IMG/VR virus record: IMGVR_UViG_3300006052_000018
Span: 1-36,857 of that record
Strand: one strand, 5' to 3'
DNA from: a virus
DNA: 36,857 nt
Shown here piece by piece: positions 5,342 to 33,849 of this stretch. Positions within the stretch are counted from its first letter, which is position 1, and each line of letters starts with the position of its first letter. The translations under genes and the position numbers were made by a program. The notes under the pieces were generated by a model. It was not told where the DNA came from. It did no database searches and saw only the letters and a list, made by a program, of their open reading frames with translations.

Positions 5342-5650
5342 ATGAAAGTTTTTTTCTCTTTTTTTTGTTTGGTTCTTTTTTGCTTCTCACTTGGACATTG
5401 TGTCGATCAGCAAGTCTTTCTGACGAAAAATCAAGTTCTATTGACGAATGAAGGCATCTTCATCGACTATCAAGGTGTCTTAACTCAAGCAAATTCATTA
5501 GAATTTTTAGAAAATAGTTATATTGCCTCGATAAATAATCCTCAAGTTGGTAGAGTGTGTAGAAAGTGCGGCTCAAATATTGGGCCTGACGGAAAATGCG
5601 AAAATGCATCCTGTAGCAACAGCGGACGTAACGGGCCGAGGAAAGAATAG
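5342..5650 (+). CDS. Small secreted zinc-ribbon protein
   Basis: A 102-residue protein with a strongly hydrophobic export signal (residues 1-19, KVFFSFFCLVLFCFSLGH). A short beta motif NEGIFIDYQG (36-45) follows, then a probable zinc ribbon formed by C73, C76, C86 and C91. The same order, GIxID-type strand then a Cys/His cluster, occurs twice in the secreted protein at 15537-16295, so the two are probably related. It has its own strong ribosome site (AGGAG) after a 66-nt gap and precedes an outer-membrane-like gene. It is probably periplasmic or surface-exposed, unlike a virion protein. Function unknown; a host-envelope accessory gene (moron) is my inference. Confidence 0.7.
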   Translation: MKVFFSFFCLVLFCFSLGHCVDQQVFLTKNQVLLTNEGIFIDYQGVLTQANSLEFLENSYIASINNPQVGRVCRKCGSNIGPDGKCENASCSNSGRNGPRKE

Positions 5651-15536: not shown

Positions 15537-16295
15537 CTAAACATATGCTTGTCCAAATTTCCAACCTTCTCTACCTTTTATGATCGTATGAGGGCACATT
15601 TTGTATTGCTTATTTGGGTTGAACCATCTGTGACATCGGGTGCATTTTGGGTTTAAGGATTTTTCAGCTTCCTGCTTATTTATATAAATTCCCTTTTCAT
15701 CGATAAATATATGATTTATAGCCCCAAGTTTACCTTCTACTTGTATTAATATACAATGGGACCCGGAAGTAGGATCAATTTTTGGGCTAGAATACGCTAA
15801 ACCAATGACAGTTGGATGGATATATATACGATCATCGACAATCTTGTAAGAAAAATCTTCTTCTTCTTTTCTATCTATTGACCAACCATTTAAAATATAA
15901 GTATTCGTATTCATTCCCTGTGGCGTTTCTTTTAAAATCGGCCAGTGAGGACAATGAGGGGAATTGTTATTGGCATCATAGAGTTGGTTACATCTGGAAC
16001 ATTTCTCCCATCTTGTATACGTTGAAAAAAAATCATTTGCATCCGTATATATTCCATTTATATCCACAAAGAGATGATTTACATGGCCAATCTTATCATC
16101 GATCATAAGGAAAATAGCATGAGGATTTTCTGAACATGGTTCTTTTGTAGAACCAAACAGAATACAAGCCGGACTCACATATAATCGATCGCCGTCTATT
16201 CTATAGGAAAAATCGGTAGATGCCTCACTTGCTTTTGCGGTGACGCAAAAAGATAGACAAAAGGAAAGGAATAAAAGTAAAAATTTGAATTTCAT
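15537..16295 (-). CDS. Secreted protein with two zinc-ribbon repeats
   Basis: 252 residues with a clear signal peptide (KFKFLLLFLSFCLSFCVTAKA, cleavage near 22). Two copies of a module of about 90 residues follow (28-118 and 148-236). Each has FSY[RK]I, a beta region, G-x-[VI]NH[IL]F[IV]D, GIY, and a Cys cluster: C99, C102, C115, H117 and C218, C221, C234, H236. Each cluster fits a structural zinc site. The smaller protein at 5342 has a shortened version of the same order. The gene ends the leftward accessory operon and is convergent with the terminase. Probably periplasmic or extracellular; no enzymatic motif. A host-interaction gene is my inference. Confidence 0.7.
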   Translation of the reverse strand: MKFKFLLLFLSFCLSFCVTAKASEASTDFSYRIDGDRLYVSPACILFGSTKEPCSENPHAIFLMIDDKIGHVNHLFVDINGIYTDANDFFSTYTRWEKCSRCNQLYDANNNSPHCPHWPILKETPQGMNTNTYILNGWSIDRKEEEDFSYKIVDDRIYIHPTVIGLAYSSPKIDPTSGSHCILIQVEGKLGAINHIFIDEKGIYINKQEAEKSLNPKCTRCHRWFNPNKQYKMCPHTIIKGREGWKFGQAYV

Positions 16296-18818: not shown

Positions 18819-18866
18819 CAAAACGGGGCCAATTTTTATATGCTTTCACTTTAGACCATGACATAC

Positions 18867-18872
18867 TATAAT
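18867..18872 (+). promoter_or_regulatory. Consensus -10 box upstream of the small membrane-protein array
   Basis: A perfect TATAAT lies about 105 nt before the first array gene. No good -35 is visible at 16-18 nt (TTTCAC is poor), so it may be activator dependent. The other features between 18749 and 18975 are the AAGTATC repeats and a relic leader at about 18873-18895. Confidence 0.35.
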
Positions 18873-18975: not shown

Positions 18976-19215
18976 ATGGTTAGTTCAACACAAAAAATTA
19001 ACTGGGATTCGATTATTTCTCTAGGAGTTGTTATGGCAACCATCATTGGTAGCACTGTTCCGTTGTATATTCACTCCACGAATCAAACAGAAAATTTGAG
19101 ACAATCTATGGAAGCTAATGCGCGCGCCATACATGAAGAAATTCACGCAATCCATGAGGAGATGAAAGATTTTCACGGACGCTTATGCGCAATAGAAGAA
19201 AGAAATAGAAAATAA
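18976..19215 (+). CDS. Array member 1: membrane/coiled-coil mini-protein (79 aa)
   Basis: First of a tandem paralogous family. One hydrophobic helix (about 13-33, ISLGVVMATIIGSTVPLYI) is followed by a charged helix with heptad character, ending in the family signature MKDFHGRLCAIEERNRK. There is no cleavable signal; the helix is probably a membrane anchor. GGAG lies 6 nt before ATG. A relative-looking spacer with the sequence AAATAACCGCAAGG lies both before this gene and after it. Function unknown; see the array finding. Confidence 0.75.
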   Translation: MVSSTQKINWDSIISLGVVMATIIGSTVPLYIHSTNQTENLRQSMEANARAIHEEIHAIHEEMKDFHGRLCAIEERNRK

Positions 19216-19232
19216 CCGCAAGGAGGAAATTT

Positions 19233-19421
19233 ATGGATTGGACGCAATTTTCCATTTTCATGATATCCAATATAGTTTTTACTTTAACATTGTGGCTATG
19301 GAGTCGAGCTGAATCCAATGCTGATCATCGGGAAATGATGAATCTTATAAGAGAAATGAAAGATGAAATGAAAGATTTCCATGGTCGTCTCTGTGCTATT
19401 GAAGAGAGGAATAGAAAGTGA
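19233..19421 (+). CDS. Array member 2: membrane/coiled-coil mini-protein (62 aa)
   Basis: MDWTQFSIFMISNIVFTLTL opens a membrane helix (about 5-24). SRAESNADHREMMNLIREM follows, then the same signature tail as member 1, MKDFHGRLCAIEERNRK (17 of 17 residues identical). The DNA of the tails has diverged at synonymous sites, so the protein sequence is being conserved. Strong AGGAGG, 6 nt before ATG. The last bases (GTGA) overlap the next start. Confidence 0.75.
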   Translation: MDWTQFSIFMISNIVFTLTLWLWSRAESNADHREMMNLIREMKDEMKDFHGRLCAIEERNRK

Positions 19422-19669
19422 TAAAACTTAATGATTTTGAACGTGAAATAGATGAATTCACAGTTGAATTCATGCAGTTCGTGGAAGAAAAGGATATAAG
19501 TATGCCTATAGTCATAGCGTCTATGGTCCGAGTTTTTGTTGCTTTCAATCTCATTAATGATGTTTCGATATCTGAATTTGAAGATGGACTGAATAGATTA
19601 TTGAAAGATTATAAGCGAAGAAAAATGGAGTCTGAAAATTGGAATATTTCACATGAAGAAACCAATTAA
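19418..19669 (+). CDS. Hypothetical acidic protein inside the array (83 aa)
   Basis: A GTG start overlaps the preceding stop (GTGA). The 83-residue product is soluble and acidic (IKLNDFEREIDEFTVEFMQFVEEKD) and lacks the array signature. Its last residues, NWNISHEETN, are echoed by YWSISHEKTN at the end of the mini-ORF at 20190, showing that this segment was copied within the array. Function unknown. Confidence 0.5.
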   Translation: MIKLNDFEREIDEFTVEFMQFVEEKDISMPIVIASMVRVFVAFNLINDVSISEFEDGLNRLLKDYKRRKMESENWNISHEETN

Positions 19670-19700
19670 TTCTAACATGTGTGGCGGATATAAAATTTAA
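19653..19700 (+). pseudogene. Truncated copy of array member at 20260
   Basis: Fifteen codons (MKKPINSNMCGGYKI) start within the end of the previous gene in another frame. The full-length gene at 20260 starts MKRQINSKINYEKI, also overlapping a paralogous SHExTN-coding end. The DNA around both starts is clearly duplicated (TTTCACATGAA...AATTAATTCTAA). Here the frame closes early, so this is a relic. Confidence 0.45.
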
Positions 19701-19743
19701 TCATGGTAAAAGTCAGGTGGATGCAAAAAATGAGTAATAAAAA

Positions 19744-19974
19744 ATGATAACACAATCAGCAGACATCGGATTAATAATAGCAATCACAGGAAGTGCAATA
19801 GCAATTGTAGGCACAGTACTCGCTATGATGTTTTGGGTAAGACAGGAAGCTAATTCTTTACGCAATGAAGCTAAAGAAGATAGGAAAGATATCCTCAATC
19901 TGATAAGATCTATTGAGTTAGAAATGAGGGATTTCCATTACAAACTAGTGGAGATTGAGAAAAACAAAAAATAG
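19744..19974 (+). CDS. Array member 3: membrane/coiled-coil mini-protein (76 aa)
   Basis: One membrane helix (about 8-31, IGLIIAITGSAIAIVGTVLAMMFWV), then EANSLRNEAKEDRKDILNLI and a divergent signature tail MRDFHYKLVEIEKNKK. The start overlaps the stop of a 14-codon mini-ORF (19703-19747, MVKVRWMQKMSNKK) that carries the better ribosome site, suggesting translation by reinitiation. Confidence 0.7.
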   Translation: MITQSADIGLIIAITGSAIAIVGTVLAMMFWVRQEANSLRNEAKEDRKDILNLIRSIELEMRDFHYKLVEIEKNKK

Positions 19975-19985
19975 CAGGGGTTAAT

Positions 19986-20180
19986 ATGGAGTGGACACAA
20001 TTTACGATATTTTTCTTAGGCGTATTTGGATTATTCATATGGAATCGTACTGAATCAAGAAACGATATTCGCCATATGGATAATAAAATTGATATCAACA
20101 GACAATTAATGCATTCTATACATGATGAAATGAAAGATTTTCATTTCAGATTATTAGAAATCGAAAGAAATAGGAGATAA
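19986..20180 (+). CDS. Array member 4: membrane/coiled-coil mini-protein (64 aa)
   Basis: MEWTQFTIFFLGVFGLFIW mirrors the MDWTQFSIF opening of member 2. A charged helix follows and the tail is MKDFHFRLLEIERNRR. A single short membrane helix spans about residues 5-19. AGGGG precedes ATG. Clear paralogue of members 1-3. Confidence 0.75.
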   Translation: MEWTQFTIFFLGVFGLFIWNRTESRNDIRHMDNKIDINRQLMHSIHDEMKDFHFRLLEIERNRR

Positions 20181-20189
20181 GAGAATACT

Positions 20190-20276
20190 ATGATAAATAT
20201 TATTTTTTGGGCATTAGTTTTAGCAACATTGTGTAATGGAGTTTATTGGAGCATTTCACATGAAAAGACAAATTAA
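20190..20276 (+). CDS. Hydrophobic mini-protein (28 aa) in the array
   Basis: MINIIFWALVLATLCNGVYW is a single membrane helix, followed by SISHEKTN. The tail matches the C-terminal residues of the protein at 19418, so it may be a rearranged fragment that kept an open frame. The only upstream Shine-Dalgarno candidate is AGGAG, partly within the preceding stop. Real expression is uncertain. Confidence 0.4.
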   Translation: MINIIFWALVLATLCNGVYWSISHEKTN

Positions 20277-20433
20277 TTCTAAAATAAATTATGAAAAAAT
20301 ATCCGCATACTTTGCTGGTTTGGCTTTAATGATTACTCTCTGGAGTGTTATTAATCAAACTCAAAGAGATCTATCAGATTTAAGAGAACGAGTTGCAAGA
20401 TTGGAAGTTAAAATAGAAAGATTGGAGAAGTAA
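20260..20433 (+). CDS. Array member 5: membrane/coiled-coil mini-protein (57 aa)
   Basis: ATG 20260 gives MKRQINSKINYEKISAYFAG..., with a membrane helix at about 12-32 and a leucine-heptad tail (LSDLRERVARLEVKIERLEK). The DFHxRL signature is absent but the layout is the same. An upstream in-frame ATG (20236) would add eight residues and has no better ribosome site. Confidence 0.65.
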   Translation: MKRQINSKINYEKISAYFAGLALMITLWSVINQTQRDLSDLRERVARLEVKIERLEK

Positions 20434-20434
20434 T

Positions 20435-20632
20435 ATGGAGTGGTTTAAGAAGCATTCTGATACAATTGTTATTTTATCTGGTATTATTAGTTCATTACTT
20501 TGGATGAACATGAAGTTCAATGAAGTACATGATCAAATCAATGATATTAAAACTGAGATCGCTGTTATGAAAACCGTGTTAATCATGCAAAAAATTATGC
20601 CAGTTGAATTGGCTCTCAAAGAGGGGAAATAA
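20435..20632 (+). CDS. Array member 6: membrane/coiled-coil mini-protein (65 aa)
   Basis: MEWFKKHSDTIVILSGIISSLLWMN gives one membrane helix (about 9-24). A heptad region (FNEVHDQINDIKTEIAVMKTVL) and a hydrophobic end follow. GGAG precedes ATG by about 6 nt. Same plan as the other array members with a divergent tail. Confidence 0.65.
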   Translation: MEWFKKHSDTIVILSGIISSLLWMNMKFNEVHDQINDIKTEIAVMKTVLIMQKIMPVELALKEGK

Positions 20633-20633
20633 T

Positions 20634-20693
20634 ATGTTGTTGGCAATAGGATCTTTTATAGTGTTTATTTGTTATCTTTGCGCAATTGACTAG
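20634..20693 (+). CDS. Hydrophobic micro-ORF ending the array (19 aa)
   Basis: MLLAIGSFIVFICYLCAID, a single potential membrane helix with GAGGGG upstream. It overlaps the 3' end of the convergent ejection-protein gene by 29 nt. Too short to be sure. Confidence 0.3.
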   Translation: MLLAIGSFIVFICYLCAID

Positions 20694-21978
20694 AAAAATC
20701 TATAGATCTTAGCTTCTCTGCGATTTCGGGATTTAGCTCCTGTAATTCTCCTACATACTGATCTAAATATTTAGTAGCCAATCCATACTTATTTTCGTTT
20801 AAGGCATTCATCATCTTAGAAGATAGGTTTTGCAACCGTGGATTTAATAATAATTCTCTGGATAATAATCTGGCGCCATGTTCTCCGACCATTTCACCGA
20901 TCAAAGGGAAGTTTCCTAAAGACAATCCAGTGAGTAATCTTATTGCTTCTCCCGCACTATAAAGATCAGAGATGAGGGAGGGCTTCAATTTTTCCGAGAT
21001 TTTAGAATAATTTGAATAGAGTTTATTTGTTATTCTAAAGTCGTTAGCTAGTTCTGGTGAAATATCTTCTAACGCTTTGAAAATTGGCTCTTTGAGAACG
21101 CCAAGTTGAGAATTTCCTTTGCCTACGTAGTAATTTACATCTTTGAAGAAATTTGTGAGTGATGAGCCTGTAATGGGGCTTTTTGCCAGATCTTCAAAAT
21201 CTTCTTGTATCTTTTTTCTTACTTCTGAGGGAAATTTTTGCATCTGTTCTTGAATGGAAGTCAGAACTTTAGAGCTGGCATCTGAAGAAAGCTCTTTACT
21301 AGCCGCTGGATTTGTTTCCAAGCGATCATAGACATCACCCAAAGCTTTATAGGATTTATCCAATAGTTTTTTTGTTCGTCCCCTTCGGGGAGCGACCTTT
21401 CCAAGTATTCTTTGCTTTTTTTCTGATTGTATTAACGGAGTAATTTCTTCCTCAGCTAATCCAAGTTTTCTAGCTCCTTCAAGAAGTTGCTCTTGTCCTT
21501 TTTTCGGAATAATCTTTTTGCCTAATCCTGGAAGGCCGAATGCTGGCAATTCCACCAAACTTTGCGCCCAGTCGGGTAATCCAATTTCTTCGGCGCCCTG
21601 ACCTAAAAATCCGGCAAGTGCAGAGCGTAGTGCCTGACCTGCAAGATTTCCTCCTCCAATGGCTGCATAAGGAGCTATCCTGCCGCCTCTTTCTAACGCC
21701 GATTCAGTGAATCCTTCTTGAGTAGGTAATAGATTTTCAATGACATCTAAGACATCTGTTTCCAATGCAGGATGTATCGTAGGAATCTGATTCAAAGCTT
21801 TAACTAATGGATTTTTTCCTAATTGGGTAGCAAACTCCTTAAGAAATCCTTTAGGTGCAGCCGACAAAAGTGATCTAACAGTGGACGGTTCCTCTTCGAC
21901 AAAGCGAAATCTTGAAGGTTTTTCAGATTTTTCTTCCTGTGGAATTTCTTTTTCTTCTTCAATAAAACGAAATGCCAT
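20665..21978 (-). CDS. Probable internal virion / DNA-ejection protein
   Basis: 437 residues from ATG 21978, which overlaps the upstream stop (TGATG). The N-terminus repeats FRF[IV]EEE twice (residues about 3-27). A Gly/Ala-rich hydrophobic region follows (about 90-115, PYAAIGGGNLAGQALRSALAGFLG), then long amphipathic helices. This architecture and the last place in the structural operon match ejection proteins of P22-like phages, which leave the virion and form a conduit across the cell envelope. No lysozyme or transglycosylase motif is visible. Confidence 0.6.
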   Translation of the reverse strand: MAFRFIEEEKEIPQEEKSEKPSRFRFVEEEPSTVRSLLSAAPKGFLKEFATQLGKNPLVKALNQIPTIHPALETDVLDVIENLLPTQEGFTESALERGGRIAPYAAIGGGNLAGQALRSALAGFLGQGAEEIGLPDWAQSLVELPAFGLPGLGKKIIPKKGQEQLLEGARKLGLAEEEITPLIQSEKKQRILGKVAPRRGRTKKLLDKSYKALGDVYDRLETNPAASKELSSDASSKVLTSIQEQMQKFPSEVRKKIQEDFEDLAKSPITGSSLTNFFKDVNYYVGKGNSQLGVLKEPIFKALEDISPELANDFRITNKLYSNYSKISEKLKPSLISDLYSAGEAIRLLTGLSLGNFPLIGEMVGEHGARLLSRELLLNPRLQNLSSKMMNALNENKYGLATKYLDQYVGELQELNPEIAEKLRSIDFSSQLRKDNK

Positions 21979-23054
21979 CAGATTGGCTCCCATGTAGTCC
22001 CATTACTTTTGAATCTTTTGCCCTTATCATCTTCTATGATTTTTCCTTTATGTTGGGCAGCTTCTGGCATTTCTTCCAGATTAAATTCAGGTCCACTAAT
22101 TTTTTGCAATTCCTCTCTCAATTCTGCTTCTTTGTCTTCAACCATAGATTCGGCGATCTCTTGAGCCTTCTCTTGGGAAATTTCGCCTAAAGAATAGTGT
22201 TTGTAAACATCAGTCAAGGCTTTTTGATAATTGCTTTCAATCTCATTGAAAATATCCATTTGACGGATGATGTCCTTTCTACCTTTTTCACTGTTGATCA
22301 ATGTAGGGAGTCTAGATTGGAAGGTTTGTATATCGAAATTTGTGACTCTTCCTCCGAAGATATCTTTTGCTCCGGAGATAAAATCATTCACGGTTTTTAC
22401 GAAACGTTCAGCTTCGGGAGGCACTAATTTCAATATTTGAGCCCATGGACGAATTTGTCCTTGGGGATTAATGAATATTCTGCCTAGACCGTCTGGGACT
22501 TTCGGAGAGAGATTGTTCAATATTTTCAAATGATCTTTTTCATTTTTTAGCGCCTTGTATTTGGATGAAGCATCTTGGAAAAGAGGAACATTTTCTTTTC
22601 TCAATTCTTTTTTATAATCAGTAAGCGCTTTTCCGGTTAAGTCTGGTGGTTCTAAGTCTGGAAATATTGTTTTTCCTTCTGGAGTTTTTTCTACTTTCGG
22701 AGGCACGTAAGGTTGTTCTCTTTCAGGAACAAGTTCTTGTTCTCGTTGTTCAATGTTTTGTTGTTCAGGTTGTTCATTCAATAATTTCTCAAAAATTCTC
22801 GTTTTACCGCCTTTAGTCAATTCGGGATAAAGATCTTCAGCAAGATTAGAAGTTCCACGCGGAATGTAACCTAAATCCTCCATACTCTTAATGCTTGATC
22901 GCAATTTTTCTGATTTCTGTTCTTCTTGCTTGCCCAACAATTTCTCTTGTCGGTATCTTTTAGCAGCTTCATCAATAGTTCCAGTAACTCCGGGAAGTAG
23001 TCCTCTTAGGAAAGATTGAATACCTGAGCCTTGACCTTCTATAATTTGAACCAT
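21978..23054 (-). CDS. Probable DNA-ejection / internal virion protein
   Basis: 358 residues. The N-terminus has a short Gly-rich amphipathic segment (GSGIQSFLRGLLPGVTGTIDEA). A charged coiled-coil region, a Gln/Glu/Pro-rich linker (NEQPEQQNIEQREQELVPEREQ) and a helical C-terminal half (about 160-330) follow. It ends KRFKSNGTTWEPI. It is coupled to the next protein by TGATG. Position between a small ejection-family protein and the terminal protein supports ejection apparatus. Exact counterpart among P22 gp7/gp16/gp20 cannot be assigned. Confidence 0.55.
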   Translation of the reverse strand: MVQIIEGQGSGIQSFLRGLLPGVTGTIDEAAKRYRQEKLLGKQEEQKSEKLRSSIKSMEDLGYIPRGTSNLAEDLYPELTKGGKTRIFEKLLNEQPEQQNIEQREQELVPEREQPYVPPKVEKTPEGKTIFPDLEPPDLTGKALTDYKKELRKENVPLFQDASSKYKALKNEKDHLKILNNLSPKVPDGLGRIFINPQGQIRPWAQILKLVPPEAERFVKTVNDFISGAKDIFGGRVTNFDIQTFQSRLPTLINSEKGRKDIIRQMDIFNEIESNYQKALTDVYKHYSLGEISQEKAQEIAESMVEDKEAELREELQKISGPEFNLEEMPEAAQHKGKIIEDDKGKRFKSNGTTWEPI

Positions 23055-33123: not shown

Positions 33124-33639
33124 ATGCAAAGATTTTATTTGAAAAAGGATCAAGTTTGGGAAAATACTGAATTTTGGAAGCAAAATACCGAAGAAGACTA
33201 TGTCAAATGTATCCAAAGCTTAATCACTTCGAAACCATTCGGAGATCATAAATTCTATATCTACTCTTTTGTGAAGAGAGTAAATGATAACACCGGGGAA
33301 AAGAAAATGTACCACCAGCCTCGCCTAACGCGTCCGGAGCCTCTTCCAGGCACTTCATTGCTCAAGGTGGACCCAAGGTCGCCTGATACCGCGATCATCG
33401 TCTGGACGCTTCCTAATCAAGAGAATTTTGGACTCTATCAACGAGGCAAGATGTTTGCTGATGAATTTGTCCATGAATGCATTCAAAAGTTTCTAAATAA
33501 TCCAAAAGAGATGTGCAAACCAGATAGTGAAGACTTAAACGACAATCAGATAAGAGATATCTATAGAGGCATCAAAAACAGATTGAAAGCGTTAAAAGCA
33601 ACAAATTTGGCGAAAGAAAAAATATCGAAGAGTGTATGA
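33124..33639 (+). CDS. Conserved phage protein on inverted island (171 aa)
   Basis: A soluble 171-residue protein. MYHQPRLTRPEPLPGTSLLKVDPRSPDTAIIVWTLPNQENFGLYQRGKMFADEFVHECIQKFLNNP has the look of a phage family I have seen among structural genes, without known function. It is transcribed against the surrounding structural operon from its own promoter, with AAGGGG before ATG. Possibly a regulator or early host-interaction protein. Confidence 0.6.
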   Translation: MQRFYLKKDQVWENTEFWKQNTEEDYVKCIQSLITSKPFGDHKFYIYSFVKRVNDNTGEKKMYHQPRLTRPEPLPGTSLLKVDPRSPDTAIIVWTLPNQENFGLYQRGKMFADEFVHECIQKFLNNPKEMCKPDSEDLNDNQIRDIYRGIKNRLKALKATNLAKEKISKSV

Positions 33640-33660: not shown

Positions 33661-33849
33661 ATGGACCCAGATTTACATCTTTTAGCTACAGTAGGATCTT
33701 TGACAGTTTTGATGTGGGGGTTGTTAAAATTTATGCTAAGAGATATTCACAAAGATTTAGAAGACATAAAACAGGCTCAGAAACGCTCTGAAACTAGGAT
33801 TGATCATTTATACGAAATTTGCATCGGACTTCTAAAGAACAGAAAATGA
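33661..33849 (+). CDS. Distant member of the membrane/coiled-coil family (62 aa)
   Basis: MDPDLHLLATVGSLTVLMWGLLKFML gives one membrane helix. RDIHKDLEDIKQAQKRSETRIDHLYEI, a heptad helix, and a basic end LLKNRK follow. The plan is that of the 18976-20632 array, 13 kb away. ATG 33661 has AAGGA close by; a GTG at 33643 would add six residues. Ends in an ATGA overlap. Confidence 0.6.
   Translation: MDPDLHLLATVGSLTVLMWGLLKFMLRDIHKDLEDIKQAQKRSETRIDHLYEICIGLLKNRK

Follow-up and report, generated by a model that had tools for sequence, protein, structure and literature searches.

Tandem arrays of one-helix membrane proteins with putative trimeric coiled-coil tails in uncultured tailed phages

Widespread uncultured phages, but none of the phage isolates that were searched, carry tandem arrays of small genes whose products probably act at the host membrane; sequence supports their assembly, their function we infer, and the preferred reading, to which a rough probability of 0.36 is given, is that they form sets of membrane-anchored hetero-trimers, most likely holin-like. 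The window, meaning the whole stretch of 36,857 nucleotides that was analysed, is a 36.9-kb virus contig with genes for a P22-type portal (PF16510, E=2e-64), a terminase, YqaJ and RusA. On its plus strand six one-helix open reading frames (ORFs) lie within 18976-20632, where the first-pass annotation had placed six or more small genes with a single membrane helix, every coordinate of which checks, together with an ORF that bears no signature (19418-19669). The array genes, numbered 1 to 7 by their starts, and the related features are:

18845..18872, plus strand: promoter-like TTCACT-16-TATAAT ahead of the array, no more than chance would give
18976..19215, plus strand: gene 1, class A, 79 aa; membrane helix at about residues 12-30; tail MKDFHGRLCAIEERNRK with RLCAIE
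19233..19421, plus strand: gene 2, class A, 62 aa; tail identical to that of gene 1
19418..19669, plus strand: gene 3, 83 aa; inside the array, no signature, not a counted member
19744..19974, plus strand: gene 4, class A, 76 aa; tail MRDFHYKLVEIEKNKK with KLVEIE
19986..20180, plus strand: gene 5, class A, 64 aa; tail MKDFHFRLLEIERNRR with RLLEIE
20260..20433, plus strand: gene 6, class E, 57 aa; anchor NYEKISAYFAGL, tail ERVARLEVKIERLEK with RVARLE
20435..20632, plus strand: gene 7, class D, 65 aa; anchor W[FI]KKHxDT..WMNxKF, tail KTVLIMxxIMPxEL
20665..21993, minus strand: convergent neighbour of the ejection/tail-type cluster, outside the family; the cluster abuts arrays in many phages
33661..33849, plus strand: class B gene, 62 aa; tail RIDHLYEICIGLLKNRK; adjoins a conserved 171-aa gene (33124-33639)

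The tail pattern M[KR]DFHxxLxxIE, previously noted in four members, is present in genes 1, 2, 4 and 5, which make up class A, and all four are recovered by leave-window-out hidden Markov models (HMMs), that is, by profiles to which the window contributed nothing, at E=1e-16 to 1e-27 (gene 1, E=1.3e-22, 64% identity to L070:4958; gene 2, E=3e-27, 70% to L002:5575; gene 4, E=9.6e-17, 74% to L047:8981; gene 5, E=1.5e-27, 75% to L017:10001). Gene 6, whose start at 20260 was picked for a GGAG 8 nt before the ATG (the alternative ATG at 20236 gives 65 aa), is 74% identical to L047:9944 and has further relatives in L075:10719 and L021:8194. Gene 7 shows 60% identity to L171:5402, and its phmmer matches are 18 ORFs in other loci. 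The gene at 33661, proposed earlier as a seventh relative, has the same plan and belongs to another tail class (B, RIDxLYxxxxxLLK), being found by the class B leave-window-out HMM at E=4.1e-13 with 46% identity to L006:2476. Gene 3, with a weak blastp match to L117:3776 and a counterpart similar in size and position by eye (L047:8711), is probably a passenger gene. Two tiny hydrophobic frames of 28 and 19 aa (20191-20277 and 20634-20693) lie in and just past the array and are possibly shorter members. Promoter-like sites in the region number 9, where 11.4 are expected.

The array ORFs are gene families under purifying selection. The stretch said to be identical between members 1 and 2 is confirmed over MKDFHGRLCAIEERNRK, and across these identical 17-residue tails the two genes show 12 nucleotide differences, of which 11 fall at third codon positions, with 0 amino acid changes; over 521 homologue pairs the median pS is 0.81 and the median pN 0.24, with pN/pS of 0.29. 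Such synonymous-heavy divergence is the pattern of translated, selected genes. That the frames are untranslated or arose by chance, a thought permitted by phages that are uncultured and known from sequence alone, is next to impossible, since the codon-level selection seen in the tails and in pN/pS, together with conservation over about 94 contigs, contradicts it.

Class A proteins begin with an acidic or neutral N terminus of 2-14 residues (often MDW or MEW), followed by a hydrophobic helix, W-x-R-x-E and a helix running into the tail. In 114/127 distinct class A proteins more K/R residues follow the helix than precede it (mean 2.9 vs 0.5), so that by the positive-inside rule an N-out/C-in topology is predicted, and AlphaFold2 models gene 5 (19986-20180) as one continuous helix over residues 3-63 (mean pLDDT 91.8). 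The same charges bear on the proposal of an inner-membrane spanin-like set with a periplasmic coiled coil, which would require the N-in/C-out orientation of i-spanins (Rz-like): weak PHROG matches to Rz-like spanins speak for it, but they are at the level expected for any membrane helix plus coiled coil, the 114/127 proteins predicted to be N-out/C-in place the coiled coil in the cytoplasm, and inspection finds no lipoprotein partner beside the array, which makes this proposal very improbable.

Conservation in class A is at its maximum in the tail and at its minimum in the membrane helix, the tail score being partly inflated because the seeds were chosen by motif. In the tail consensus EMKDFHGRLCAIEERNKK, which includes R-L-C-A-I-E, the residues I, M, F, L and I occupy heptad positions, and the tail looks coiled-coil, as had been supposed. 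RLCAIE corresponds to R(g)-h(a)-x-x-h(d)-E(e), a motif of parallel trimers, in register with the hydrophobic heptad of the tail, and the class A consensus RLxxIE likewise has the register expected of a parallel trimeric coiled coil. R-h-x-x-h-E is described as a parallel-trimer coiled-coil motif in g-a-d-e register and is also found in some coiled-coil dimers (PMC3653964). Of 157 class A proteins 80.3% contain it, whereas its rate is 2.3% in shuffled tails and 1.05% in a set of 7,592 other small ORFs; since the class A members are related, this counts as one conserved feature and not as 126 independent events. Gene 6 (RVARLE) has the motif too, as do tails of C type (RLSKLE, RLTRLE), and class B tails (RIDQLYxMFIDLLKE) keep R-h-x-x-h with the E missing. 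The class B profile matches A proteins across the anchor, roughly at profile positions 3-46 and with E values as low as about 1e-7, and because anchors are common to A and B while tails differ, the parts look modular. At least five tail classes, A to E, can be distinguished. As predicted from these features, the proteins are probably membrane-anchored coiled-coil oligomers, trimeric and able to mix. The earlier idea of hetero-oligomers is thus made plausible by the conserved trimer motif; the holin/antiholin, exclusion and envelope-complex roles offered with it are all candidates.

A highly conserved cytoplasmic tail on a variable anchor, continuous with it in a single helix and existing in several classes that could bind several partners, would also suit a membrane scaffold that uses its tails to hold phage replication or virion assembly at the inner membrane. 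Such tethering has been proposed for the membrane-anchored phi29 p16.7, which resembles the array proteins in its N-terminal membrane helix and cytoplasmic coiled coil; p16.7 ends in a DNA-binding domain and exists as one copy, whereas the array proteins are multi-copy and have no DNA-binding domain. Moreover, a search modelled on the tail alone turned up no matching tail on a soluble or large protein among the ORFs of the compared loci, copy number varies and the genes are not universal among relatives, so a scaffold is improbable.

How the arrays arose was also reconsidered. Repeated duplication within this phage had been suggested, but for only 3.75% of 80 copies from multi-copy genomes does the same genome hold the nearest anchor relative (null 1.4%, p=0.13), against about 96% with it in another genome, so recent in-genome duplication was rejected and the arrays are collections of old, long-separated lineages. 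The tail shared by genes 1 and 2 is accordingly explained by both matching the family consensus and not by recent copying. An ordered block is common to the window and L047: an A gene with an IAIVGS anchor, an A gene with an FGLFIW anchor, an E gene and then the convergent ejection-type gene. A direct repeat of 41 nt, 85% identical, links 19638-19678 and 20245-20285; the copy at 19638-19678, between genes 3 and 4, is apparently the decayed start of a gene-6-like (class E) copy, as judged from the repeat, and suggests local turnover. Tail homogenisation within genomes is not significant by mean identity (p=0.15 and 0.16), and a nearest-tail test gave 12.5% vs 1.4%; with that test alone positive, homogenisation is kept as a hint only, and its weakness is counted against the holin-like reading.

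Homologous arrays, the absence of which from related phages had been named beforehand as grounds for refutation, are found in many of them. A class A alignment run against IMG/VR gave 95 confirmed stretches, of which 80 were kept; after overlapping loci were merged, about 94 contigs carry class A, 77 class B and 31 both, figures that are rough because class was assigned by profile score and that show spread and not frequency, the contigs having been picked by the query. A whole-record search gave 1-7 class A matches per record in 41/41 array contigs (a few being split pieces of one gene), and at the locus L010 nine such genes follow one another (four A, three B, one B-like and a final A). Among terminase-related records, A is present in 14/32, A or B in 18/32 and neither profile in 14/32. 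A class A member searched by tblastn matched none of the 50,697 phage records and none of the 72,556 plasmids, and a class B search of the same kind gave chance-level matches only (E=0.9). Class A matched one of 84,980 species genomes in GTDB, on a 33-kb contig of a Bacteroidales MAG that is possibly misbinned. In the record G043, whose capsid is 91% identical to that of the window and in which neither A nor B is found by profile, L234:133-384 encodes a divergent one-helix relative (35% to gene 5, motif absent). The same record has an F-box match (L235:2182-2763, E=5e-5), and one island gene elsewhere is weakly U-box (E=6.5e-4); eukaryote-like domains of this kind suggest that the hosts live within eukaryotes. 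In the literature searched, nothing directly relevant was found on small-membrane-protein arrays or on tailed phages that infect chlamydiae or symbionts of amoebae.

The array genes run opposite to tail/ejection genes in 63/66, 20/20, 17/17 and 72/79 cases, which makes a shared late transcript unlikely; relative to capsid and portal they are opposite in about 70%, and relative to replication genes about evenly oriented. The islands sit at varied late-region junctions (tail fibre/ejection in L014, portal/terminase in L032) and contain, besides arrays, HTH, Fic/Doc, Band_7, DUF551, resolvase and other genes. In L004:399-1024 a Fic/Doc toxin gene with an AbrB-like partner is followed directly by a class B gene, the toxin stop and the class B start overlapping, and in L169:4250-5095 a phage Band_7/SPFH membrane protein (E=8e-31) is encoded directly 3' of a class B gene. 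The terminase matches at L095:3363-5024 and L096:2472-4133 are about 380 nt longer than the aligned residues need, possibly owing to an intein or intron. Elsewhere in the window, 5342-5650 and 15537-16295 (minus strand) encode small proteins, alike by eye, with signal-peptide-like N termini and CxxC pairs and no significant family match.

An accessory role played early, exclusion for example, is favoured by the strand, the missing lysin, the patchy occurrence and a conservation centred on the tail. On that account a moron-like island would make membrane trimers early from its own promoter, which would exclude competing phage DNA or alter a host membrane protein, and their variety would reflect competition. 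Strand-inverted islands flanked by late genes at varied places, patchy presence in 1-7 copies, the HTH, Fic/Doc, Band_7, DUF551 and resolvase genes in the same islands, and the frequent proximity of arrays to ejection-type genes as a possible target all fit. An ectodomain of about 2-14 residues, however, leaves little exposed outside, no named exclusion family is similar, conservation is strongest in the cytoplasmic tail, and lysis genes may also sit in early units, as in SPP1 (PMC6316719); exclusion or takeover is accordingly judged possible, though somewhat unlikely.

A neighbouring lysin gene is the usual hallmark of a holin, and no lysin gene adjoins the window array. Phage lysozyme (PF00959), Amidase_2 (PF01510), SLT (PF01464) and M15_4 (PF13539) are absent in 41 array-bearing records (G000-G040), and Pfam scans of the window ORFs and of most G007 ORFs gave no murein hydrolase; these negatives cover recognised families, divergent lysins being possible, and refer to records whose completeness is not given. 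In Pfam and PHROGs no family fits classes A to E, single members being matched at the coiled-coil chance level only. The candidate phrog_1009 weakly matched 14/49 members, but it also matches E. coli, B. subtilis and other controls and is therefore non-specific. Holin_BhlA (PF10960) was found in 0/20 array-bearing records at E<=1 and not among the matches listed for 49 members, and XhlA (PF10779) gave at best 15.4 bits against a cut-off of 34.7, in a sub-threshold range of 9-15 bits.

The arrays belong with small phage membrane protein sets, a kind already known. Gordonia phages encode one-TM, N-out/C-in holin-like proteins always arrayed with at least two other TM genes (PMC9671378), and these resemble the array proteins in their N-terminal helix, orientation, tiny outside part, charged cytoplasmic tail and arrays of small membrane genes. 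The Gordonia sets are endolysin-linked in most cassettes, with one-TM tails lacking a coiled coil and at most four genes, none duplicated (PMC9671378), whereas the arrays described here show no known lysin, a trimer-motif coiled coil and runs of as many as nine genes that are homologous or share the plan. BhlA/UviB/TpeE proteins (PF10960) share a length of about 70 aa, one helix and a C-terminal amphipathic helix, and the TM helix of BhlA is bactericidal by itself (PMC9527704); they differ in being often from Firmicutes, amidase- or bacteriocin-linked and not arrayed. XhlA with XhlB is likewise a small, partner-dependent phage lysis protein with a coiled coil and one helix, such pairs being lethal only on co-production (PMC6316719), but the XhlA helix is C-terminal and the order thus reversed with respect to the N-terminal helix of the array proteins. 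The class III holin T of phage T4 shares one TM helix and differs in its 218 aa, N-in/C-out topology and large outside domain (PMC9671378).

That the nearest architectural precedents (Gordonia arrays, BhlA, XhlA/XhlB) are lysis-linked is counted for the holin-like reading, as is the lack of a recognised lysin in array-bearing records, which would fit lysin-free release. Counted against it are the array without a lysin neighbour, the orientation opposite to tail/ejection genes, the 14/32 terminase-related records without A or B, the missing BhlA/XhlA match, and a conservation high in the tail and low in the membrane helix, where a pore-former might have the opposite pattern. In the holin-like reading each gene would yield a one-helix protein lying N-out/C-in in the host inner membrane, its helix continuing into the cytoplasm, where the conserved tails would zip into parallel three-stranded coiled coils. 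Differing anchors with matching tails would then give homo- or hetero-trimers that gather varied anchors in one membrane patch; we infer that such a mixed set might disturb the inner membrane, or time its disturbance, at release in phages without a recognised murein hydrolase. A bolder extension, which appears rather doubtful, sees a modular toolkit of five or more tail classes (A-E) and many interchangeable anchors in tandem arrays. With its mixed hetero-trimers, phages that infect wall-poor intracellular bacteria could lyse their host, or keep rivals out, by means of membrane proteins alone and without a murein hydrolase.

Taken together, the analysis resolves a nameless block of tiny ORFs as defined, searchable protein families on more than 100 environmental phage contigs, which are not recognised in Pfam or PHROGs, and offers the concrete prediction that parallel trimers form, with chains from different paralogues. 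Should lysis be the right reading, the arrays would represent an exit route for tailed phages without a recognisable lysin.
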